Origin: Luteitalea sp. TBR-22
Lineage (GTDB): Bacteria; Acidobacteriota; Vicinamibacteria; Vicinamibacterales; Vicinamibacteraceae
NCBI RefSeq assembly: GCF_016865485.1
Contig: NZ_AP024452.1
Coordinates: 1,138,501-1,202,500 of the forward strand
DNA length: 64,000 nt
Direction of reading: 5' to 3'
A program made the translations under genes and the position numbers. The notes below the pieces were generated by a model. It had not been told where the DNA came from. It was given only the letters and a program-made list of their open reading frames with translations, and searched no databases. This document shows, piece by piece, positions 8,002-57,203 of this stretch (position 1 is the first letter of the stretch; every line of letters starts with the position of its first letter).

Positions 8002-8044
8002 GCGGATCGGGGATCGGGGAAGGCGGATCGGGGACCGCGGGATC
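8002..8044. repeat. heptamer tandem array, GSGGATC family
   Basis: Six consecutive copies can be read: GCGGATC, GGGGATC, GGGGAAG, GCGGATC, GGGGACC and GCGGGATC (last copy one base longer). They fill most of the 55-bp spacer between the alkA start (7995) and the YhbY stop (8051). The same unit in reverse complement (GATCCCC/GATCCGC) recurs at 33345-33407 and 57172-57199. Confidence 0.85.
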
Positions 8045-8050
8045 GCTGCG

Positions 8051-9431: not shown

Positions 9432-11198
9432 CTACCTCCTGCGTGGAAGAGCCCAGCGCTCGTCGTCGAAGCCGAACGCGTGGATGGTGCCGTCGGCGGT
9501 GCCGACGAAGACCTGCCCCAGACCGCTCCACAGGCTGCCGGGCGAGGCGGGCGAGGTCATCGCCGCGCCGCTCGTGAACAACCGCTTACCCGTGACGCCG
9601 TCGTAGGCCTGAAGCACGGCTCCTGACGCCGGGCGGGCGCCGGCAGCGGGCCTCCCTGCGCCGAGCGCGAAGACGACGCCGTTGACGACCAGTGGTGTCG
9701 CGGGCGCGGGCAGTGACCTCGACGCCCAGGCCGGCTCGACGGCGACCGTGTCGGCGGCCGCGCGCAGGCGCAGCGAGACCAGCGCGCCCGGCCCGGCAGG
9801 ACTGTTGGGCGACGCCAACCCGGCGGCGATCGGCCCATCCACCGGCACCAGCACGAACGCGTCGCCGCCATCGGCCTGCCGCCACGCGGCGATCGCATCC
9901 CGGCGCACCATGCCGCCGGCTCCCGCCACGGGTGCCGACGTCGCCAACGGCGTTGCGTGATCCGCGCCGCCGAGGGCGCCGGCATCCAGGACGACCACGC
10001 GGCCATCGCGGGTCGCCGCGGCGACGACGTCGCGCGTGCCGACGCGAATCACGGTCGGGCCGGTCACGAAGTCGGCGTCGGGGCGCGTGAACCAGTCCTT
10101 CACGGCGAGGGTCTGCGGGTCGAGCGCGACGATCGCGTTGGCCTTGCCGTCGCCAATCGCGGTTCCGGAGCCGACGGCGGCCAGCAACGTGCCGTCGGCC
10201 GTGAAGGCGACGGCGCCGACCACCGGGCCGCCGTTGGTCTTCCACGACACGACAGGCTTGGCCTCGCTGTCGAGGTCGATCGACCACACGCCGTCGGCGG
10301 TGCCGCCGCATCCGCCGGTGGTGGCCACGTAGAGTCGGGTGTCGACGCCGACCGGCGCGGTAAACCGTGCGCCACGCGGCAGGAACGTCGCCGGCTTCTG
10401 CAGGTCCTTGCCCGACGCCAGGCCGAGCACGCGCAGTCGGCCGTCGCGCCCGACCACGTAGACGACTCCTGAAGGGACGGCGAGGCCGCGTACTGGCGTC
10501 GCGCTGCGGGGCGCCCCGGGGATGTCGCCCGGCGACCGGGCCGGTGCGGCAGCGGTCGTGGCTGCTGCGCTCGCGGCGCCGGGCGCGGCGGGTGCCCCTG
10601 CTGCCGGCGCGGGCGTCGGGGCCGGCGTCGCCGGACGCGCTGCCTGCGACTGCCGACGCACGCTGTCCATCGGGTTGCCCTCGCCCGGCCTGCCGATCAG
10701 GCTGCGGTAGCCGACCCCCGGCGGGGCCGGCGGTCGTGCGAGAGGGTCGGCGGTCGCCGAGCCGTCGAGGGGGACGATGCGGGTGGCGGCGGAGGTGATG
10801 GCGCCGGCGCACGACGGCAGGCTGGCCCTGTCCTCCACGTCGAGCGCACGCTGCCAGACGACATGGGCGATGTCGTTGTCGAGCGCGTACACGCGATCGC
10901 CCGCGCCGGTCACCACCGACATCGGCACGAAGAGCGTCACACCGCTGGCCGTCACACCCTGCAGGAGCGGACCGCGGGCGCCGTGCTCGGCCCCCGGCGC
11001 CTTGGTCCACTGCAGGCGGAAGCCGGGCGCCGACATCGTCTCCGGCGTGATCTTCTGGTCGACGCGGATCCACGACGTGCGCTGCGCATCGGCCAGCGGC
11101 GCGAACCAGCGCGTGCCGCCGCGGCCGACCTGCGCGAGGCCGACGCTGCCCGCCGCCAGGCAGGCCAGTGCGGTGAACGTCCAGCGAGCCGGGCGCAT
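9432..11198 (-). CDS. secreted PQQ-like beta-propeller repeat protein
   Basis: 588 residues from the ATG overlapping the upstream stop (ATGA). A signal peptide is clear (MRPARW, then a hydrophobic stretch ending near LAQV). The rest is a series of eight-stranded-propeller blades of the PQQ-like type: VVYVVGRDGRLRVLGL, DGVWSIDLDSEA, VFVGTADGTIHAFGFDD. An Ala/Pro-rich low-complexity insert occupies roughly residues 190-240 (repeats such as PAPTPAPAAG) and probably forms a flexible surface linker between two propeller halves. There is no heme motif and no sign of PQQ ligands. It is paired with a second propeller protein upstream in the same operon, so the two may form a complex. The function is not known. 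Confidence 0.8.
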   Translation of the reverse strand: MRPARWTFTALACLAAGSVGLAQVGRGGTRWFAPLADAQRTSWIRVDQKITPETMSAPGFRLQWTKAPGAEHGARGPLLQGVTASGVTLFVPMSVVTGAGDRVYALDNDIAHVVWQRALDVEDRASLPSCAGAITSAATRIVPLDGSATADPLARPPAPPGVGYRSLIGRPGEGNPMDSVRRQSQAARPATPAPTPAPAAGAPAAPGAASAAATTAAAPARSPGDIPGAPRSATPVRGLAVPSGVVYVVGRDGRLRVLGLASGKDLQKPATFLPRGARFTAPVGVDTRLYVATTGGCGGTADGVWSIDLDSEAKPVVSWKTNGGPVVGAVAFTADGTLLAAVGSGTAIGDGKANAIVALDPQTLAVKDWFTRPDADFVTGPTVIRVGTRDVVAAATRDGRVVVLDAGALGGADHATPLATSAPVAGAGGMVRRDAIAAWRQADGGDAFVLVPVDGPIAAGLASPNSPAGPGALVSLRLRAAADTVAVEPAWASRSLPAPATPLVVNGVVFALGAGRPAAGARPASGAVLQAYDGVTGKRLFTSGAAMTSPASPGSLWSGLGQVFVGTADGTIHAFGFDDERWALPRRR

Positions 11199-12784
11199 CA
11201 CTTCGCCTCCTTGCGCGGGATGCCGAAGCAGTACAGCGTGCCGTCGAAGGTCGCGACGTAGGCCTTGCCGTTGGCCACGGTGAGCCCACTGAAGTGGTTC
11301 CACGACGTGATGGTGTCGCCGCTCGACCAGAGTTCCTTGCCGGTGCGGCCGTCGAGGGCGTACAGGGCGGCGCGTCGCGAACCGGCAATGCGTCGGACCG
11401 GTCCAGAGCTCAGGCCGCCGCCGTACACCGGGCCGCCGGGTTCATCCCAGCCTTTCTCGGGCATCACCTGCGAGGCGTCCTCGCCACCTGCGTAGGCGAA
11501 CACGATGCCGTTGGCGATGACGACCTCCTCGGCCAGGTCCATGTCGCGGGAGATCCACGCCGGCACCAGCCGCCATCCCTCGGGTCGCTGCCGCAGCGTG
11601 AACGCCGCCACGCCGCCGCCCTTGGGACGAGCATGCTCGATCGGCGCCTTGAAGCCCTTGCTCACCGGACCCCAGAACGGCGCGAGCACCCATTGCGTGC
11701 CCGCGCTGTCCTTCCAGCCGCCGAGCGCGCCCCAGATGCCCTGCGCATCGAAGGCCTGCTGGTCGTTGCAGATCAGCGGCGTGGTGTGCAGCGTGGTGCG
11801 GTGGTCCTCGCCGCCGAGCGCGTCACGATCGAGCAGCCACAGCCGGCACTCCTTGCTGGTGCCGACGAGGAACCGGCGCCCGCCGTGGTCGATGGCCATC
11901 GGTGTCGTGTTGACGTCGAGGTCGCGGCGCCACAGCCAGTTGGCATTGGGCGCGCCGAAGTAGTCGGCCAGCTGCAGGTTGCCGACCATGTCGAGCTTGA
12001 CGCCGACGATGCCGTTGCCGAGCCGACGGTTCAGCGGATCGAACATCGCGTCGCCGGTGCCCAGGAACACCCGGCCCTGCGCGTCGATCGAGGCGCCTCG
12101 TCGTCCCCACAGGCCGCCGCCCGCCGGGATGAACGCGCTCACGACCTTCGTGCCCAGGTTGAAGGAGTAGAAGGCATTGGTGAGGCCGCCACACCCCTGC
12201 GCGGTGGCGGTGTAGACCACGCCATCGTGGAGGTTGAGGGCGTACGGCTTGCCGCCGCCGGGGATGAACAGCTCGGGGGGCGCGGCGTCCTCGCCGTCGG
12301 CGAGGTTGATCTGGCGGAGACGCCCGTCCCACGACACCACGTAGATGGTGTACCGGCCCGGCGCGGTGCGCGCCATCACCGGCACGGCCGTCAGGCCCCC
12401 CGGGCAGAGCGTGTCGTCGGTACGGCCCTCGCTGGTGAGCGTGCTGTCGAACTTGCGGTGCCAGATCTCGCGGCCGGTCGCGACGTCGATGCCCCAGAGA
12501 TCGTCGGACACGCCGGTGACGACGGCCAGTTCACGCTCGCCGTCGGCGGTGGAGACCTTCTCGGCGACGAGCGGCGCGAAGAGGTTGTGCATCGCGCGCG
12601 GCTTGCTCGGCAGCTTCAGCGTCCAGAGCAGCGTCGTCGTGCCGACGTTGGCCGGCGTGAAGACGCGTTCGTCGCGCACCCAGCCCGTCCGCGCGGAATC
12701 GACGCCCTCGGTGAGGAAGTCGGAGGCCAGCCCCGTCATGCCCCCGGCCACCACCAGCACCGCCATCAGCTTCGCCACGTGCAT
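11198..12784 (-). CDS. secreted PQQ-binding-like beta-propeller protein
   Basis: 528 residues if translation begins at the ATG at 12784 (MHVAKLMAVLV, a good signal peptide). An ATG at 12799 is also in frame, but it lies within the proposed -10 box TATGAT (12800-12795). Blades are visible as VVTGVSDDLWGIDVATGREIW, IYVVSWDGRLRQINL, LYALDGRTGKELW and AYVATFDGTLYCFG, characteristic of PQQ-like repeat domains. CxGG (AQGCGGLTNAFYSF) matches the GCGGTADGVWSI segment of the next gene, so the two proteins are diverged paralogues. There are no heme motifs. They are probably periplasmic and structural or redox-associated; no enzymatic residues are recognisable. Confidence 0.8.
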   Translation of the reverse strand: MHVAKLMAVLVVAGGMTGLASDFLTEGVDSARTGWVRDERVFTPANVGTTTLLWTLKLPSKPRAMHNLFAPLVAEKVSTADGERELAVVTGVSDDLWGIDVATGREIWHRKFDSTLTSEGRTDDTLCPGGLTAVPVMARTAPGRYTIYVVSWDGRLRQINLADGEDAAPPELFIPGGGKPYALNLHDGVVYTATAQGCGGLTNAFYSFNLGTKVVSAFIPAGGGLWGRRGASIDAQGRVFLGTGDAMFDPLNRRLGNGIVGVKLDMVGNLQLADYFGAPNANWLWRRDLDVNTTPMAIDHGGRRFLVGTSKECRLWLLDRDALGGEDHRTTLHTTPLICNDQQAFDAQGIWGALGGWKDSAGTQWVLAPFWGPVSKGFKAPIEHARPKGGGVAAFTLRQRPEGWRLVPAWISRDMDLAEEVVIANGIVFAYAGGEDASQVMPEKGWDEPGGPVYGGGLSSGPVRRIAGSRRAALYALDGRTGKELWSSGDTITSWNHFSGLTVANGKAYVATFDGTLYCFGIPRKEAK

Positions 12785-12794
12785 ATGGGGCGGA

Positions 12795-12800
12795 ATCATA
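12795..12800 (-). promoter_or_regulatory. candidate -10 box of the propeller operon
   Basis: On the minus strand TATGAT ends ten bases before the ATG at 12784, so transcription would start only about three or four bases before it. No clear -35 hexamer is visible because the upstream DNA is the heptamer array. Confidence 0.4.
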
Positions 12801-12803
12801 GTG

Positions 12804-13056
12804 CAAGGGACAAGGGACAGGGGACGAGGGAACAGTCCCAAGGGCTGCGAGGGACGAGGGACAAGGACCGAGGGACGCGAGACAACGACGGCAAGGGAAG
12901 AGGGACGGGCCGTGAGGGACAAGCCTGGGCGCGCACGGAGGCTGTCGTACTCGCGGTCCGCGCTCAGGTCTTCCTTCTTGTCACCTCGTCGCTGGTCTTG
13001 CTTGCCCCCGTCCCTTGCCTCCCCTTGTGACTTGTCGCTCGTCCCTCCTCCCTTGG
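12804..13056. repeat. head-to-head heptamer arrays, CRAGGGA family
   Basis: From 12804 the sequence reads CAAGGGA, CAAGGGA, CAGGGGA, CGAGGGA and further degenerate copies to about 12930. After a short unique core, 12980-13056 carries the reverse complement (units like TCCCTTG, TCGTCCC, TCCTCCC). The two arms could form a long imperfect hairpin. The pair fills the divergent intergenic region between the propeller operon and the cytochrome-HhH gene. No gene is seen in it. Confidence 0.75.
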
Positions 13057-13057
13057 G

Positions 13058-13063
13058 TACAAT
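13058..13063 (+). promoter_or_regulatory. -10 box giving a probably leaderless mRNA
   Basis: TACAAT lies six bases before the ATG at 13070, so the expected transcription start falls on the start codon. No Shine-Dalgarno sequence is present. A TTG-containing element at 13032 is 20 bases upstream, a poor spacing for a -35. Confidence 0.5.
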
Positions 13064-13069
13064 CGCCGC

Positions 13070-13603
13070 ATGACGGTGAAGGGGCTCTGGTCGGGCGTGT
13101 TGGTCGCGGCGTGGGTGGCGTCGTTGGTCGTGGTGTCGGCGCGGCCTGCGCAGGAGCCGGCGGCCGGGCAGCCGCCGATGCTCGTGCCCTCCGGCGTCGG
13201 GTTGCCCGACGGGCCGGGCAAGGACGTGATGGTGCAATCGTGCGGGGCGTGCCACGAGGCGCGGCGCGCGGCGTCGGCCCGGCTCACGAAGGCGGGCTGG
13301 GCGGCGGTGATCGACAGCATGATCGGGCGGGGCGCGAAGATCGCCGAGGCCGACGTGCCGGTGGTGCTCGACTACCTGACGGCGAACTTCCTCGGCGAGG
13401 CGGCGCAGCCGATCAACATCAACATCGCGCCACAGATCGACTTCGAGGCGGCAGTCGGCCTGCTGCGGCGCGAGGCCGCGGCCATCGTGGCGTACCGCAA
13501 CACGCACGGACGCTTTGCCAGCGTCGACGATCTGAAGAAGGTGCCCGGCGTCGATCCGCGCAAGATCGAGGCCCGCAAGTCGGTGCTCGTGGTGCTCCAG
13601 TAA
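13070..13603 (+). CDS. exported c-type cytochrome fused to a ComEA-like HhH domain
   Basis: 177 residues. A signal peptide spans residues 1 to about 25. A single heme site, CGACH, is at Cys58-His62, followed by a helix with conserved WAAVIDSMIGRGA, as in the small cytochromes near sulfite or PQQ dehydrogenases. From about residue 110 a second domain begins: ININIAPQIDFEAA, IVAYRNTHGRFASVDDLKK and VPGVDPRKIEARK, the full helix-hairpin-helix pattern of ComEA. In ComEA this domain binds DNA; in a heme protein it may instead act as a protein-protein module. The TAA stop overlaps the first base of the 145-bp repeat. The gene diverges from the propeller operon and precedes a PQQ dehydrogenase, so an electron-transfer role is plausible. 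Confidence 0.82.
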   Translation: MTVKGLWSGVLVAAWVASLVVVSARPAQEPAAGQPPMLVPSGVGLPDGPGKDVMVQSCGACHEARRAASARLTKAGWAAVIDSMIGRGAKIAEADVPVVLDYLTANFLGEAAQPININIAPQIDFEAAVGLLRREAAAIVAYRNTHGRFASVDDLKKVPGVDPRKIEARKSVLVVLQ

Positions 13604-13746
13604 TTTGAAACTGGAGATTTGAAATTCACCGGCGGCCGGCCTGTCGGCCTTGCCGCTCGACACATCCCGAGGGGCGGCGGCGGAGCCGCGCCTCACGAGA
13701 ATTTCAAATTTCGAATCTCGAATTGCCACCTCAGGGGCGGATCACC
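13602..13746. mobile_element. 145-bp MITE-like element, copy 1
   Basis: The left end (from AATTTGAAACTGGAG) and right end (to AATTGCCACCTCAGG and GATCACC) carry inverted A+T-rich arms of about 25 bp that match at 20 of 25 positions, around a very GC-rich core. It is identical in length to 15975-16119, with seven mismatches in 145 bases. It begins inside the stop codon of the cytochrome-HhH gene. There is no coding capacity of its own. The remaining sequence 13747-13950 holds the promoter of the next gene. Confidence 0.8.
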
Positions 13747-13786
13747 CGGCGGCCACTCGCGCCCGTGCTGACGCGTAAGTTCGCGC

Positions 13787-13815
13787 TTGCCTCGGCGCGC
13801 GGAACTCATCTATAA
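13787..13815 (+). promoter_or_regulatory. sigma70-like promoter of the PQQ dehydrogenase gene
   Basis: TTGCCT at 13787-13792 and CTATAA at 13810-13815 are separated by 17 bases, the optimal spacing. It would give a leader of about 130 nucleotides before the start codon at 13951. Confidence 0.45.
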
Positions 13816-13950
13816 GGGGCTGAGCCCTTCAGCTCGAAGTCCCTCGCGCGTCGTCTCGCGGCGCGCCTCGACGAGTCGCGCCAGCGATCCGCCGCGGCGC
13901 GCAGCCTCCCACGCGTCACAGGTCGTGCCCTCTCGTCCGTGGAGGCTGCT

Positions 13951-15981
13951 GTGAAGCTGGTCCTCGTGTCGATCACCGTTGTCGCATGTTCGGCCACGCT
14001 CGCGGCCGGTTGGCTCCAGTCGTCCCCGTCAAGCGCCGATGGGCCGTTCACCGAGGCCCAGGCGACGCGCGGCAAGGAGGTCTATGCGCGCACGTGTGCC
14101 GCCTGCCATGGCCCCGACCTGCAGGGCGCGGCCTCGATCCCGCTGGTCGGCAGCAGCTTCCAGGCACGCTGGCGGTTCCCTGCGCTGACCGTCGACGACC
14201 TGTTCTACATCGTGCGCAAGACCATGCCGCCGCAGGCCGCCGGCACGGTGCCGGTCGACGATCTCTCGGACGCGGTCGCCTACCTGCTCCAGGCCAACGG
14301 GTACCGCCCCGGGCCGACGCCGCTGGCCGTCGGCGCGGCAGGACTGAAGCAACCCCTCGCGTGGGCCGGCAAGTACGCCAGTCCGACGGGGGACTCGGCG
14401 ATTGCGGGGCCCGACGTCCTGCCCGGCGACGCCGGGGCCACGCCGGGCACGACGGGGCCCGACCAGGCCGCGCTCGACGGTGCCGGGCGGTCCACCGACT
14501 GGCTGGTGCACACCCACGATTACGCCGGGACGCGCTACTCACCGCTCTCGCAGATCGACACCAGCAACGCCGCCCGTCTCGTGCCGACCTGCATGCTCCA
14601 GGTCGGGGAGGCGGACAGCTTCCAGACCGGGCCGATCGTGCACGCCGGCACGATGTACCTGGCGACGGCGAAGAGCACGATCGCCATCGACGCGGCGACC
14701 TGCCGGGTCAAGTGGCGTCACTCGTGGCGGTTGCGTGGCGACGCGTCCTGGAATCGCAACCGCGGGGTCGCGCTCAAGGACGGGCGGGTCGTGCGGGGCA
14801 CGCCCGACGGCTACCTGGTCGCCCTCAGCAGCGAGACCGGCGCGATGCTGTGGGCGCGGCGTGTGGCCGACTCCGCGGCCGGCGAGACGTTCACGATGGC
14901 GCCCGTCATCTACGACGATCTGATCCTGATCGGCCCGGCGGGCAGCGAGAACAACATCAAGGGCTGGGTGGGGGCCTTCCGGTTGGCCGACGGCACGCCC
15001 GTGTGGCGGTTCAACACCGTGCCGCGGCCTGGCGAGCCCGGCTACGACACCTGGCAGAACCCGACGAACATCCCGATGGCCGGGGGCGCGGTCTGGACGT
15101 CGTTCTCGCTCGACACCGCGACCGGCGACCTGCACGTCGCCGTCACCAATCCTGCACCGGACCTGCCCGCGCACCTGCGACCAGGCTCGAACCTCTACAC
15201 CAACTCGATCCTCGTGCTCGACGTGCGCACCGGCAAGCACCGGTGGCACCGGTCGATGGTGCCCGCCGACTCGCACGACTGGGACCTGTCGCACGCCATG
15301 CCCCTGTTCAGCGCCACCATCGGCGGCGCATCCCGGCGCCTCGTCGCGACGGTCGGCAAGGACGGCATCCTGCGGACGCTCGATCGCGAGACGCACGACA
15401 TCGTGTACGCAACGCCGGTCACCACCATCAAGAACGCCGACCTGCCGGTCACGACCACGCCGACGCACGCCTGTCCCGGCGTGCTCGGTGGCGTGGAGTG
15501 GAACGGCCCCTCGTACAGCGCCACCACCGGGATGCTGTACGTTCCCGCGGTGGACTGGTGCAGCACCTTCATCGCCGATCCCGAGCCACGGTACATCCCG
15601 GGGAAGAGCTACCTGGGTGGGACGGCCGCCCGTGACCCTGCGGAGAAGTCGCAGGGGTGGCTCACGGCGCTGGACGCGACGACGGGCGTGGTGCGCTGGA
15701 AGCACCGGTCGCCGCGTCCGATGGTCGCGGCGGTGACGTCCACCGCCGGTGGCCTCGTGCTGGCGGGCGAACTGACCGGCGACTTCCTCGCCCTCGACGG
15801 GCGCACCGGCGACGTGCTCTACCGGTTCAACACGGGCGGCTCGATGGGCGGGGGCATCGTGACGTACGAGACGGGCGGGCGGCAGTACATCGCGGTCGCC
15901 TCAGGCACGCCGTCGGCCTTCTGGGTGGACAGGAACGGCGGCGCACCCACGATCGTGGTGTTCGCCCTGCCCGCAATTTGA
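13951..15981 (+). CDS. PQQ-dependent dehydrogenase with N-terminal cytochrome c domain
   Basis: The GTG at 13951 follows GGAGG by five bases and gives 676 residues; a GTG at 13939 is in frame but has no such site. After a signal peptide, a cytochrome c domain has CAACH (Cys49-His53) and a Met ligand candidate in TMPPQAAG. Then an eight-bladed quinoprotein propeller begins with DWLVHTHDYAGTRYSPL, a standard entry segment, and includes DSHDWDLSHAMPLF (active-site Asp region) and GVEWNGPSYSATTGMLYVP. Quinohemoprotein dehydrogenases normally carry the cytochrome at the C terminus, so this is the reversed order. The substrate may be an alcohol or sugar. The final Ile codon and TGA stop lie inside the second 145-bp repeat copy. 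Confidence 0.87.
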   Translation: MKLVLVSITVVACSATLAAGWLQSSPSSADGPFTEAQATRGKEVYARTCAACHGPDLQGAASIPLVGSSFQARWRFPALTVDDLFYIVRKTMPPQAAGTVPVDDLSDAVAYLLQANGYRPGPTPLAVGAAGLKQPLAWAGKYASPTGDSAIAGPDVLPGDAGATPGTTGPDQAALDGAGRSTDWLVHTHDYAGTRYSPLSQIDTSNAARLVPTCMLQVGEADSFQTGPIVHAGTMYLATAKSTIAIDAATCRVKWRHSWRLRGDASWNRNRGVALKDGRVVRGTPDGYLVALSSETGAMLWARRVADSAAGETFTMAPVIYDDLILIGPAGSENNIKGWVGAFRLADGTPVWRFNTVPRPGEPGYDTWQNPTNIPMAGGAVWTSFSLDTATGDLHVAVTNPAPDLPAHLRPGSNLYTNSILVLDVRTGKHRWHRSMVPADSHDWDLSHAMPLFSATIGGASRRLVATVGKDGILRTLDRETHDIVYATPVTTIKNADLPVTTTPTHACPGVLGGVEWNGPSYSATTGMLYVPAVDWCSTFIADPEPRYIPGKSYLGGTAARDPAEKSQGWLTALDATTGVVRWKHRSPRPMVAAVTSTAGGLVLAGELTGDFLALDGRTGDVLYRFNTGGSMGGGIVTYETGGRQYIAVASGTPSAFWVDRNGGAPTIVVFALPAI

Positions 15982-16119
15982 AATTGGAAATTTGAAATTG
16001 ACCGGCGGCCGGCCTGTCGGCCTTGCCGCTCGACACGTCCCGAGGGGCGGCGGCGGAGCCGCGCCCCACGAGAATTTCAAATTTCCAATTTCGAATTGCC
16101 ACCTCAGGGGCGGATCACC
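15975..16119. mobile_element. 145-bp MITE-like element, copy 2
   Basis: This copy has nearly perfect arms: AATTTGAAATTGGAAATTTG on the left matches the reverse complement of the right arm at 24 of 25 positions over 25 bp. It differs from copy 1 at seven positions and has the same length. The left end supplies the last sense codon and stop of the plus-strand PQQ dehydrogenase. The right end supplies the last residues and TGA stop of the convergent minus-strand gene. Confidence 0.82.
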
Positions 16120-17471
16120 GTTCCGTCCCGCCGCCGCGTCTGGCCCCATGAGTAGTCGAAGTTCGGCGGCCCCGGCTTGAAGGGGAACTTCGCCGCGAGC
16201 GCCTCGTCGACCTCCACGCCGTGCCCGGGGGCGTCGTTGGCGACCATGTAGCCGTTGACCTGCTCGGGCGCGCCCTTGAACACCTCGCGCGTCCGGGCCG
16301 GGAACGCGCCGCCTTCGTGGATCCCGAAGTTGTAGGTCGACAGCTCCAGCGCCAGCTGCGCCGCGTGCGCCACCGGTGACGCGTCGCCCGGTCCGTGCCA
16401 CGCCGTGCGCACCCCGAAGAACTCCGACAGCGCCGCCACCTTGCGGGCCGGCGAGAGGCCGCCGATCTGCGAGATGTGGATGCGGATGAAGTCGATCAGC
16501 CGCTCGGAGATCAACGGCAGGTACTCCTGCACGGTGTTGAACAGCTCGCCCATCGCGATGGGCACACTGGTCTGCTGCCGCAACTGCCGGAACCACCCGT
16601 TGTCCTCGGGCGGGAACGGATCCTCGAGGAAGAACAGGTTGTACGGTTCGAGCGCCTTGCAGAGGTTGATCGCCTCGTTGAGCTGGACGCGCTCGTGCAC
16701 GTCGTGCAGCAACTGCACCTCGTCGCCGAGGGCGGTCCGCAGGTGCGCGAACAGCTTCGGCAGCATCCGCACGTACGGCGCCGACTCCCAGATGGCGCGC
16801 GGGTTGGTGGGACCGATGGGCTCGGCGGTGTCGCCGGCCGTCGCCGCGTCGCTGCGCGCGCCGTAGGTGGCCAGGCCCGGGACGCCGCCCTGCACGCGCA
16901 CGTGACGGAAGCCGGCGGCGATGCCCTTGCGCGCGTTCTCGGTGACCTCGGCGAAGTCGCGGCCGCTGGCGTGGTAGTAGCAGTCGGCACCGTGGCGCAC
17001 CTTGCCGCCGAGCAACTGGTAGAGCGGCAGGCCGGCGCGCTTGCCGAGGATGTCCCACAGCGCGATGTCGACGCCGCTCATGGCGTTGAACAGCACCGGG
17101 CCGTTGCGCCAGTACGAGGACATGTACATCGACTGCCAGATGTCCTCGATCTCGTCGACGCGCCGTCCGATGAGGAACGGCCGCAGGTACTCGTCGACGG
17201 CGGTCTTGACGACGAGCGCGCGCTGCGTGAACGTCGCGCAGCCCCAGCCGTGCAGTCCCGGCTGGTCGGTGAGCACCTTCACGACCACCAGGCGGATGTT
17301 GTCGGGTGCCGTGAGGATCACCTGCACGTCGCGAATCCGGATGGCCGGCAGTCCCCGCGGCGCCGCGGGCACCGTCGGCGCCTGCGCCAGCGCCGCGGCC
17401 TCCGTCAGCACACCTGTCCCTACCAGCGCCGAGCCCTGCGCGAGCCGGCGCAGCACGTCACGTCGATGCAT
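16104..17471 (-). CDS. Tat-exported enolase-superfamily protein, D-mannonate dehydratase/RspA-like
   Basis: 455 residues. The N terminus MHRRDVLRRLAQGS is a twin-arginine signal; AGGAGG lies a few bases upstream. The enolase-superfamily barrel has its three metal ligands in DVHERV, FFLEDPFPP and AMGELFN, followed by RIHISQIGG and the TAWHGPGDASPVAH segment typical of mannonate dehydratases and RspA-like proteins. Known members are cytoplasmic and dehydrate D-mannonate or gluconate; a Tat-exported form is unusual but recurrent in sugar-acid-degrading soil bacteria (inference). Its 3' end is formed by the 145-bp repeat. The PQQ dehydrogenase converges on it, so the two are not co-transcribed. 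Confidence 0.8.
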   Translation of the reverse strand: MHRRDVLRRLAQGSALVGTGVLTEAAALAQAPTVPAAPRGLPAIRIRDVQVILTAPDNIRLVVVKVLTDQPGLHGWGCATFTQRALVVKTAVDEYLRPFLIGRRVDEIEDIWQSMYMSSYWRNGPVLFNAMSGVDIALWDILGKRAGLPLYQLLGGKVRHGADCYYHASGRDFAEVTENARKGIAAGFRHVRVQGGVPGLATYGARSDAATAGDTAEPIGPTNPRAIWESAPYVRMLPKLFAHLRTALGDEVQLLHDVHERVQLNEAINLCKALEPYNLFFLEDPFPPEDNGWFRQLRQQTSVPIAMGELFNTVQEYLPLISERLIDFIRIHISQIGGLSPARKVAALSEFFGVRTAWHGPGDASPVAHAAQLALELSTYNFGIHEGGAFPARTREVFKGAPEQVNGYMVANDAPGHGVEVDEALAAKFPFKPGPPNFDYSWGQTRRRDGTVIRP

Positions 17472-25278: not shown

Positions 25279-26196
25279 GTGCACGCGCCGCGCGTCATTG
25301 CCGTGGTCGGCGCCGGCCTGATGGGGCACGGCATCGCGCAGGCCTTCGCGGAGGCCGGGTGGGTGGTTCGCGTCACCGATGCCGATCCGGCCGTGCGCGA
25401 CACGGTCCACGCGCGCATCGCGCGCAACCTCGAGGAGGCGGGCGGGTCGCCGCCTGACGTGCTCGCGCGCGTGGACGTCGCCGCGACGCTCGCCGACACG
25501 GTCGGCGACGCCGACCTCGTGATCGAGTCGGTGTTCGAGGACGTCGGTCTGAAGCAGTCGCTCCTCGTTGAACTGGCCGGTCTGGCCCCGGCGGGCGCCA
25601 TCCTCGCCAGCAACACCTCCGTCATCCCGATCTCGCGGCTCGGGGAGCGCCTCGTCGAGGAGGACCGGGGCCGGTTGCTGGGGACGCACTGGTGGAACCC
25701 GCCGCACCTGATGCCACTGGTGGAGGTCGTGCGCACGGCCGACACGCGGCAGGACGTGGTCGAAGCGGTGGTGGCGCTGCTGCGCGACGTCGGGAAGGAG
25801 CCCGTGGTCGTGCACAAGGACGTGACGGGCTTCATCGGCAACCGCCTCAACCAGGCCATGTGGCGTGAGGCGCTGGCGCTGATCGACGCCGGCGTCTGCG
25901 ATGCCGCGACCATCGACACGGTGGTGAAGTCATCGTTCGGGCTGCGACTGCCGGTGCTCGGGCCGATGGAGAACGCCGACCTCATCGGCCTCGACCTCAC
26001 GCGGTCGCTGCACGCGCTGCTGTTCCCCGACCTCGACAGGTCCACCGCGCCGTCGCCCGTGCTCGATGCCGCGATTGCCCGCGGCGCCACCGGCATGAAG
26101 GCCGGCGCCGGCCTGCGTCGCTGGACGGGCGCGGAGGCCGAGGCGGTGCGTCGGCGGCTCGACGCGCACCTGCGAAGGCTGAACGCCGAACGCTGA
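25279..26196 (+). CDS. 3-hydroxyacyl-CoA dehydrogenase family protein (HWWNP type)
   Basis: 305 residues from GTG 25279, ten bases after the DUF1080 stop. The NAD-binding motif VVGAGLMGHGIAQAFAEAG opens the protein. DLVIESVFED, ILASNTSVIPI and THWWNPPHLMPLVEVV follow, then the C-terminal helical domain with GFIGNRLNQAMWREAL. The HWWNPPH form, rather than HFFNP, is found in lambda-crystallin, carnitine dehydrogenase and related hydroxyacid dehydrogenases, so a hydroxy acid or 3-hydroxyacyl-CoA could be the substrate. One catalytic domain only, as in 3-hydroxybutyryl-CoA dehydrogenase. The stop codon falls inside a GCYGAAC heptamer triplet. Confidence 0.85.
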   Translation: MHAPRVIAVVGAGLMGHGIAQAFAEAGWVVRVTDADPAVRDTVHARIARNLEEAGGSPPDVLARVDVAATLADTVGDADLVIESVFEDVGLKQSLLVELAGLAPAGAILASNTSVIPISRLGERLVEEDRGRLLGTHWWNPPHLMPLVEVVRTADTRQDVVEAVVALLRDVGKEPVVVHKDVTGFIGNRLNQAMWREALALIDAGVCDAATIDTVVKSSFGLRLPVLGPMENADLIGLDLTRSLHALLFPDLDRSTAPSPVLDAAIARGATGMKAGAGLRRWTGAEAEAVRRRLDAHLRRLNAER

Positions 26197-26198
26197 AC
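26178..26198 (+). repeat. heptamer triplet, GCYGAAC family, at a gene end
   Basis: GCTGAAC, GCCGAAC and GCTGAAC run in direct order through the last codons and TGA stop (26194-26196) of the dehydrogenase gene. The same unit occurs three times without change at 28957-28977. Confidence 0.7.
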
Positions 26199-26251
26199 GG
26201 CCGCTCGACTGGAAGTGGTGCGCGCTCGCTGTCCGACCGGATTTCCAAACC

Positions 26252-33273: not shown

Positions 33274-33344
33274 GGCGCCGCACCCGATCACTGCCCCTCA
33301 GCTGGGACCCGACCGCGACGTGCCGGACGCCAACCGCGTTCCGC

Positions 33345-33407
33345 GATCCCCGACGCCGATCCCGACCCGCGATCCCCGATCCGCGATCCGCGATCCCCGA
33401 TCCCCGA
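33345..33407. repeat. heptamer tandem array, GATCCSC family
   Basis: Nine units follow in order: GATCCCC, two 6-base units GACGCC and GATCCC, then GACCCGC, GATCCCC, GATCCGC twice and GATCCCC twice. It lies 70 bases after the kinase stop, before a strong terminator. The same unit is at 8002-8044 (inverted) and 57172-57199. Confidence 0.88.
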
Positions 33408-41340: not shown

Positions 41341-41375
41341 GGCTCAGGGCTCGAGGCTCATGGCTCAGGGCTGCG
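41341..41375. repeat. heptamer tandem array, GGCTCAG family
   Basis: Five units read GGCTCAG, GGCTCGA, GGCTCAT, GGCTCAG, GGCTGCG. They lie in the 217-bp spacer between the histidine kinase start and the desaturase end. Confidence 0.8.
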
Positions 41376-57124: not shown

Positions 57125-57199
57125 GATGCCGCGAATGCCGCTCTGCCGCAGCGACGGCCGGAGGTGAGCCCGATCCCCGCTCCGCGATCCCCGATCCGC
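57125..57199. repeat. mixed short tandem repeats: GCCGCGAT/GAATGCCGC units and a GATCCSC heptamer array
   Basis: 57125-57150 has four GCCGC-based units of 8-9 bases. 57172-57199 has GATCCCC, GCTCCGC, GATCCCC and GATCCGC, exact 7-base steps, ending five bases from the stop of the downstream spermidine-synthase-like gene (57204). Confidence 0.75.
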
Positions 57200-57203
57200 G
57201 GAC

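Follow-up and report, generated by a model that had tools for sequence, protein, structure and literature searches.

A REP-like palindromic repeat family at gene 3′ ends in the genome of Luteitalea sp. TBR-22

Introduction

Repetitive extragenic palindromic sequences (REPs) occupy characteristic positions relative to bacterial genes: most of those between convergent genes lie no more than 20 bp from the 3′ end of either gene, those between tandem genes lie near the upstream one, and their GTAG ends often give stop codons, according to the accessible portion of PMC3733652, which also describes GTAG-15 REP dimers within long AT-rich palindromes in Anabaena variabilis. The accessible portions of other papers describe REPINs as mobile REP doublets (PMC3116915), intergenic TAACTGA heptads of Beggiatoaceae that provide stops in three frames (PMC4679880) and Escherichia coli inverted repeats right after stop codons, mostly parts of intrinsic terminators (PMC6060812). 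In E. coli, REPs located no more than 15 nt from a stop codon are cited as stalling ribosomes (PMC12306157). Here, we analyze a 64,000-nt stretch (positions 1,138,501–1,202,500, hereafter the window) of the one-contig, 6,468,984-bp genome of Luteitalea sp. TBR-22, in which two 145-bp palindromic repeats bracket a pyrroloquinoline quinone (PQQ)-type dehydrogenase gene, and the genome-wide family to which these repeats belong.

The family is REP-like, non-coding and amplified in the species. We hold, with somewhat better than even confidence, that it caps gene 3′ ends by combining a two-way translation stop in all three frames with a probable transcript end, and that it has been copied between sites. 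A preliminary description had regarded the window pair either as miniature inverted-repeat transposable element (MITE)-like, a classification that our data do not support, or as a processed palindromic repeat, which comes close to the reading that we favor.

Results

A search with the 145-bp unit, suggested in the preliminary description, uncovered a dispersed family in place of the two lone copies for which that description had allowed. By blastn, 60 matches from the best 40 of 154 candidates marked 40 separate places with at least 80% identity; the remaining 20 were weaker and fell largely on the same places on the opposite strand. From the best 150 genome matches of a covariance model built from 30 aligned copies, 92 places were taken, which merge into 89 loci; because the element is near-palindromic, the model also matches many copies on the opposite strand. 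It scores three further loci (L142, L143 and L145), and an arm-pair pattern adds 550102–550174, which brings the genome to 93 copies or more, including a few in which one arm is damaged; the true number is probably higher. This count leaves out a weak match in L137 (E 0.006) and six heptad loci with a single arm or a minimal hairpin (285085, 952783, 1300102, 2619275, 2628002 and 2734685). The heptad pattern AATTYGAAATT has 107 + 113 matches in the genome and its reversed pattern 0 + 0. Among the matches listed, no model copy lies from 1845376 to 2318756 (473 kb), and the 1.5–2.0-Mb bin holds 2 copies versus 5–11 in the other full 0.5-Mb bins.

Each arm of the element comprises three and a half heptads of the word AATTYGA (AATTTGA-AATTNGA-AATTTGA-AATT), inverted at the far end to give terminal inverted repeats. 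The outer bases are GG(C/T), with G at 121 and 159 of the 178 arm ends, followed by C (127) or T (40). The 25-bp inverted arms around a GC-rich core previously noted in the window were borne out, with complementarity at 20/25 positions in copy 1 and 24/25 in copy 2; across the family, the median is 20/25, and 79 of 89 copies reach at least 18. Beyond the arms, the inverted repeat does not extend outward further than shuffled flanks give. Allowing at most one mismatch, A+AATTTGAAATT occurs seven times in the window, always in or overlapping the arms of the two copies (mean of 0.00 in 100 shuffles). The core usually contains two GC-rich hairpins and takes at least three forms by eye: A, B and a short one (total element of ~106 bp). 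Rough text matching of the core halves in 89 copies gave 30 A–A, 11 B–B, 9 B–A and 4 A–B combinations, with 35 short or unclassified, and these mixed cores suggest that halves have been swapped among copies. A few cores contain other repeats, which are GTAG-type hairpins in the copies at 584136 and 4223263 and of other kinds at 5052981 and 6063824.

We next compared the placement of the family with that of genes, which were called by a simple codon-usage script. For 94 loci (the 89 plus five found only by pattern, which are absent from the distance lists below), the context is convergent in 56, tandem in 33 and divergent in 5, versus 19, 108 and 63, respectively, for 190 element-free gaps of at least 30 bp in the same stretches (Fisher p = 2e-18). 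Of the 48 pairs of neighboring genes in the window, 9 are convergent. At tandem loci (n = 31), the stop side lies between −24 and +23 nt (median −1) and the start side between −21 and +353 nt (median 32), and 103 of 106 convergent sides fall within 24 nt.

Many genes end inside the arms. We counted a gene as reading into an arm if its called stop lay within −80 to +40 nt, excluding stops farther than 80 nt; 136 of the 178 arm ends of the 89 copies have such a stop, of which 69 are in the arm, 52 start at most 13 nt outside and 15 are farther away. The in-arm stops peak at −1 (29), +4 (23), +11 (7) and +18 (8), with one each at +3 and +8. The −1 stop is a TAA that uses the first AA of the arm, and the stops at +4, +11 and +18 are the TGA in the first, second and third heptads, each in a different frame, because a seven-base period shifts the frame by one at each repeat. 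The TGA of successive words would thus stop genes entering from either side, and a translation-stop role in three frames is supported by the sequence together with the gene calls. A C-to-T change that creates the TAA at −1 is present at 29 of 36 ends where the frame needs it and no earlier stop exists, versus 11 of 142 other ends. The base preceding this T is G in 29 of 29 cases, matching the end of the element itself, which makes the T look like an alteration of the element and not target sequence. It looks to have been kept for the immediate translation stop that it gives, and it is the strongest sign of use.

The transcript-end role is probable, judging from position and symmetry. On both strands, the GC-rich core folds into stable hairpins; together with the AT-rich arms, it probably sets the ends of convergent transcripts, acting as a two-way terminator or as a 3′ barrier. 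Whole-element folding of the window copies gives z-scores of −3.6 to −6.3 relative to dinucleotide shuffles on either strand.

Several observations weigh against a capping role as we propose it. The gene ends depend on the calling script. Relative to base shuffles, the folding advantage of the 89 cores is modest (median z of −1.39, with 27 of 89 below −2). An element’s own arms pair no better than swapped arms (19.775 versus 19.777 of 25), giving no sign of co-variation or that arm pairing is selected, which weakens an RNA-stem role; the RNAalifold covariation term is 0.17 (unfavorable or nil), although 7 of 31 predicted pairs are changed on both sides in at least one sequence. The arms seem to matter as sequence and not as a co-evolving stem. 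No T run follows the GC hairpin, where the consensus is AATTTCAAATTTC with T runs of at most 3, so the element is not a textbook intrinsic terminator. Finally, no mover has been linked to the element, as both the RAYT-type and the ISL3 candidates considered below fail; the flanking genes were not scanned for transposases.

The proximity of stops also bears on an alternative in which the repeat would serve as a translation brake, the hairpin by the stop stalling ribosomes and lowering output of the upstream gene, with transcript ending secondary. The REP effect in E. coli cited in the accessible text of PMC12306157 provides a precedent, and 121 of the 136 gene stops start inside an arm or at most 13 nt from it. 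We nevertheless consider a brake unlikely, because a ribosome at an in-arm stop would open part of the palindrome and because the arms show no covariation.

As to how the family spread, a classical MITE would have arisen by deletion from an element with a DDE transposase, would be mobilized in trans and would either prefer gene ends or survive there. Terminal inverted arms, many copies and a lack of coding capacity fit this description, as does the presence of copies in a related species, where 6 of 10 examined have no match among the element-bearing stretches of TBR-22. We nonetheless judge a MITE distinctly unlikely, and the MITE-like label is not supported on two counts: across 89 copies, no 3–9-bp direct repeat at offsets 0–12 exceeded shuffled pairings, and the positions are fixed on stop codons, not scattered through intergenic DNA. 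No autonomous parent with the same ends was met among the 98 loci read, with the flanking genes again not scanned. The one ISL3-family insertion sequence encountered is ~1.36 kb long, with a 410-aa transposase and three near-identical copies. It was rejected as the mobilizer because its own ends differ and because it uses the family arms as targets: two of the three copies are inserted in arms with 8-bp duplications (CAAATTTC and ACAATTTG), and the third is at an AT-rich site. Two ISL3 copies in the related species adjoin AATTTC/AATTTTG words.

A REPIN-like element moved by a RAYT (a single-strand Y1 transposase) would account for the two-hairpin core, which would then represent a REP dimer within an AT-rich palindrome, comparable to GTAG-15 of A. 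variabilis. The placement fits that of published REPs, including stop codons derived from REP ends (available part of PMC3733652), and the genome has two Y1 transposase genes (PF01797) of RAYT type, scoring 97.4 and 76.8 bits with the NCBIfam RAYT model (cut-off of 80). Both genes, however, adjoin their own, different GTAG-tagged hairpin repeats (GTAGGGCGCGG and GTAGGCGTCGACC); the family element was not found flanking either, and the closest listed copies are ~98 kb and ~26 kb away. By eye, no GTAG/CGTC tag was seen at the hairpin feet in the 30-copy alignment or in the 89 copies. With no link to either gene, these RAYTs were rejected as mobilizers, and a REPIN-like origin appears to us possible but doubtful. 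The mobilizer in trans invoked in the preliminary description was therefore identified neither among the RAYT-type genes nor in the ISL3 element. On the capping interpretation, spread would not have proceeded by MITE cut-and-paste; copies may instead be made or homogenized by site-to-site copying, perhaps by ectopic gene conversion through the arms or by an HUH-type mover.

Among relatives, by blastn of 60 genomes, the element is present only in TBR-22 (genome G000) and in G004, which belongs to the same genus and has 17 model matches over both strands, of which 10 distinct loci were examined; G001, G002 and G003 have no model match. The heptad pattern occurs in 51 of 162 genomes of the order (220 matches in TBR-22, 24 in G012, 16 in G001, 13 in G004 and at most 6 in the others), and 20 stretches read from G001 and G012 contain isolated arrays, small hairpins or palindromes built around different cores. 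In the wider genome collection, which might not include the TBR-22 genome, an arm-plus-core pattern gave two matches in unrelated bacteria (L160 and L161), neither of which proved to be the element on reading. In G012 (another family of the order; L182–L191), we also observed arrays of the AATTTGA heptad and hairpins that lack GC cores, several right after stop codons. Tandem arrays with a seven-base period, based on a variety of words, are frequent in the genus: they make up 17 of the 103 arrays in the window, 75 of 324 across 340 kb of G001 and 62 of 444 across 376 kb of G004, and several of them directly follow stop codons. Those in the window include 8004–8045, 12804–12906, 26173–26199, 33340–33407, 41341–41372 and 57169–57200. 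Period-9 arrays are more numerous than period-7 arrays (19 in the window and 105 in G004).

Comparison of the 10 G004 loci with element-bearing stretches of TBR-22 (the only stretches compared) matched 4 to sites bearing the element in both genomes and 6 to none. At the three complete shared sites (451440, 467812 and 4574435), the G004 core aligns better with the TBR-22 core when one of the two is inverted (38.5, 26.5 and 36.0 versus 15.0, 8.5 and 7.5), and model scores agree that they lie in opposite directions. The fourth site (617222, at a G004 contig end) is opposite by model score and weakly so by alignment (16.5 versus 13.0). Chance alone would give opposite cores with a frequency of 1 in 8 (three sites) or 1 in 16 (four). 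By eye, the core type differs between the two genomes at three of the four sites. At 2855410, G001 has a lone heptad arm directly after the stop codon, without a core. At five further sites, relatives carry other repeats (344960, 469307, 825749 and 1245456) or none (444346) by eye, and the two window sites are occupied by GTAG-type hairpins, at both in G001 and at one in G004. In a filled/empty comparison of nine sites, the relatives’ flanks were ~78–88% identical at the DNA level, too diverged for clean empty sites.

Because occupants vary at shared sites, gene-end addresses can persist while their occupants change, an outcome that would follow from gene conversion via the arms and equally from insertions recurring at the same positions. 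Tentatively, and with considerable doubt, we propose that gene ends in the genus are fixed addresses and that the element may be a portable two-way cassette whose arms persist while the core is swapped, in either direction, by copying from elsewhere. The same variation can be read as neutral debris, inserted anywhere, surviving at gene ends where it does least harm and having no function: several shared addresses hold a different repeat, or no repeat at all, in related species, which implies that the particular sequence is not needed, and the lack of arm covariation agrees. We lean away from neutrality, although it is possible, because at tandem loci the stop side is never more than 24 nt away, although the start side has up to 353 nt of room, and because the TAA-making T is present where it is needed.

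Turning to the window itself, realignment reproduced the 7 mismatches in 145 bp, without a gap, on which the preliminary description was based, and a repeat finder reported the same pair; the two copies also run in the same direction on either side of the PQQ-type gene, as it had stated (Table 1). The 145-bp unit holds for this pair and not for the family, whose element ends near base 126–127 (~126 bp): among the other 38 places with at least 80% identity by blastn, a single match reaches base 141, and not one covers all 145. Only the window copies share the final 19 bp without a difference, and in copy 2 this tail carries both the stop codon and the final codons of the convergent mandelate racemase/enolase-superfamily gene. 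Because the identity includes this flank, one copy was either created from the other or overwritten by it, along with some of the flank.

This pair raises the alternative that the window copies simply arose together by local duplication and require no dispersed family. They are the most alike of all 89 copies (0.944) and share the 19 bp of flank; nine neighboring pairs less than 3 kb apart have a mean likeness of 0.820 versus 0.759 for random pairs (reached by 13 of 5,000 random sets), and such gaps number 9 versus 3.5 expected (maximum of 10 in 2,000 trials). Local copying accounts for the window pair but not for at least 93 copies genome-wide, so duplication as the full explanation is refuted by the family, and we regard local duplication alone as extremely unlikely.

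Table 1. Repeat copies and adjoining genes in the window, and transposase genes and insertion sequences from other loci
Feature	Position	Strand	Remarks
Copy 1, family element	13602–13727	+	Subfamily A core; model R1, 142.2 bits; blastn
Left heptad arm, copy 1	13602–13626	+	
GC-rich core, copy 1	13627–13699	+	
Right heptad arm, copy 1	13700–13724	−	
19-bp tail, copy 1	13728–13746	no strand	Same as that of copy 2
Copy 2, family element	15975–16100	+	Best genome match to model, 153.3 bits
Left heptad arm, copy 2	15975–15999	+	Gives TGA stop (15979–15981) of PQQ-type gene
GC-rich core, copy 2	16000–16072	+	
Right heptad arm, copy 2	16073–16097	−	
19-bp tail, copy 2	16101–16119	no strand	Same as that of copy 1
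Helix-hairpin-helix domain gene	13070–13603	+	TAA stop (13601–13603) borrows first two bases of copy 1
PQQ-dehydrogenase-like gene with cytochrome domain	13951–15981	+	Between the two copies; Pfam PF01011
Mandelate racemase/enolase-superfamily gene	16104–17411	−	Convergent with PQQ-type gene; stop starts 9 nt outside copy 2 arm
RAYT-type gene	L041 1423–1860	+	
RAYT-type gene	L042 1450–1926	−	
ISL3-family copies	L092 4498–5856; L109 about 637–2015; L235		

The closest match to the PQQ-type protein in four relatives is 39% identical, with no close match in the genus. Genes like the helix-hairpin-helix and mandelate racemase/enolase-superfamily genes lie ~17 kb apart in G004 and ~19 kb apart in G001, in reversed order, and no match to the PQQ-type protein lies between them in either genome. 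The window arrangement was thus probably derived in the TBR-22 genome, and because the site has been rearranged, it offers no clean empty site. The repeats may possibly have taken part in this rearrangement, and recombination between the two copies could possibly delete the PQQ-type gene. The genes of block 9432–13603 are found elsewhere, in a different order, in two relatives. An Rfam search of window positions 13400–16400 gave no match at E up to 1, and the phage collection contained no match to the repeat.

Discussion

If our interpretation is correct, the family would be a natural portable gene-end module, present at about 100 sites of a single genome, from a phylum that has received little study; its stop codons would be used by genes and bear a sequence signature of selection. 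It would make testable how repeats become gene boundaries in GC-rich bacteria and how they spread without a visible transposase, and it would at the same time be a landing pad for insertion sequences between genes.

A limited literature search found no title or abstract start describing this repeat family. In the available parts of the papers compared, we did not see a repeat that combines, as this one does, a core lacking the tag with arms of inverted heptads, a selected stop codon and cores facing opposite ways at sites shared between species. With MITEs, the element has in common its short length, non-coding nature, inverted arms and many copies, but no target duplication was seen and no parent element was found, within the scope given above for flanking genes. 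The E. coli inverted repeats described in the accessible text of PMC6060812 are mostly parts of intrinsic terminators, whereas the TBR-22 elements have no T run. The Beggiatoaceae TAACTGA heptads are likewise seven-base intergenic repeats that stop all three frames (PMC4679880); as far as the available portion of that paper describes them, they form direct arrays mostly just before start codons, whereas those of TBR-22 lie at gene ends as inverted pairs that enclose a GC core.

Closer in architecture is GTAG-15 of A. variabilis, a hairpin pair inside an AT-rich palindrome with ATTTGA/TCAAAT-like words (available part of PMC3733652), although its inner unit is a tagged REP and the TBR-22 core is usually untagged, with GTAG-type hairpins having entered it in a few copies. 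Although the TBR-22 element differs from REPs and REPINs in having no GTAG/CGTC tag, no adjoining RAYT, a length of ~126 bp and inverted-heptad arms, it resembles them, as described in the accessible portions of PMC3733652 and PMC3116915, in being a dispersed extragenic palindrome with two-hairpin units, located mostly at convergent and tandem gene 3′ ends, whose own ends often give stop codons.

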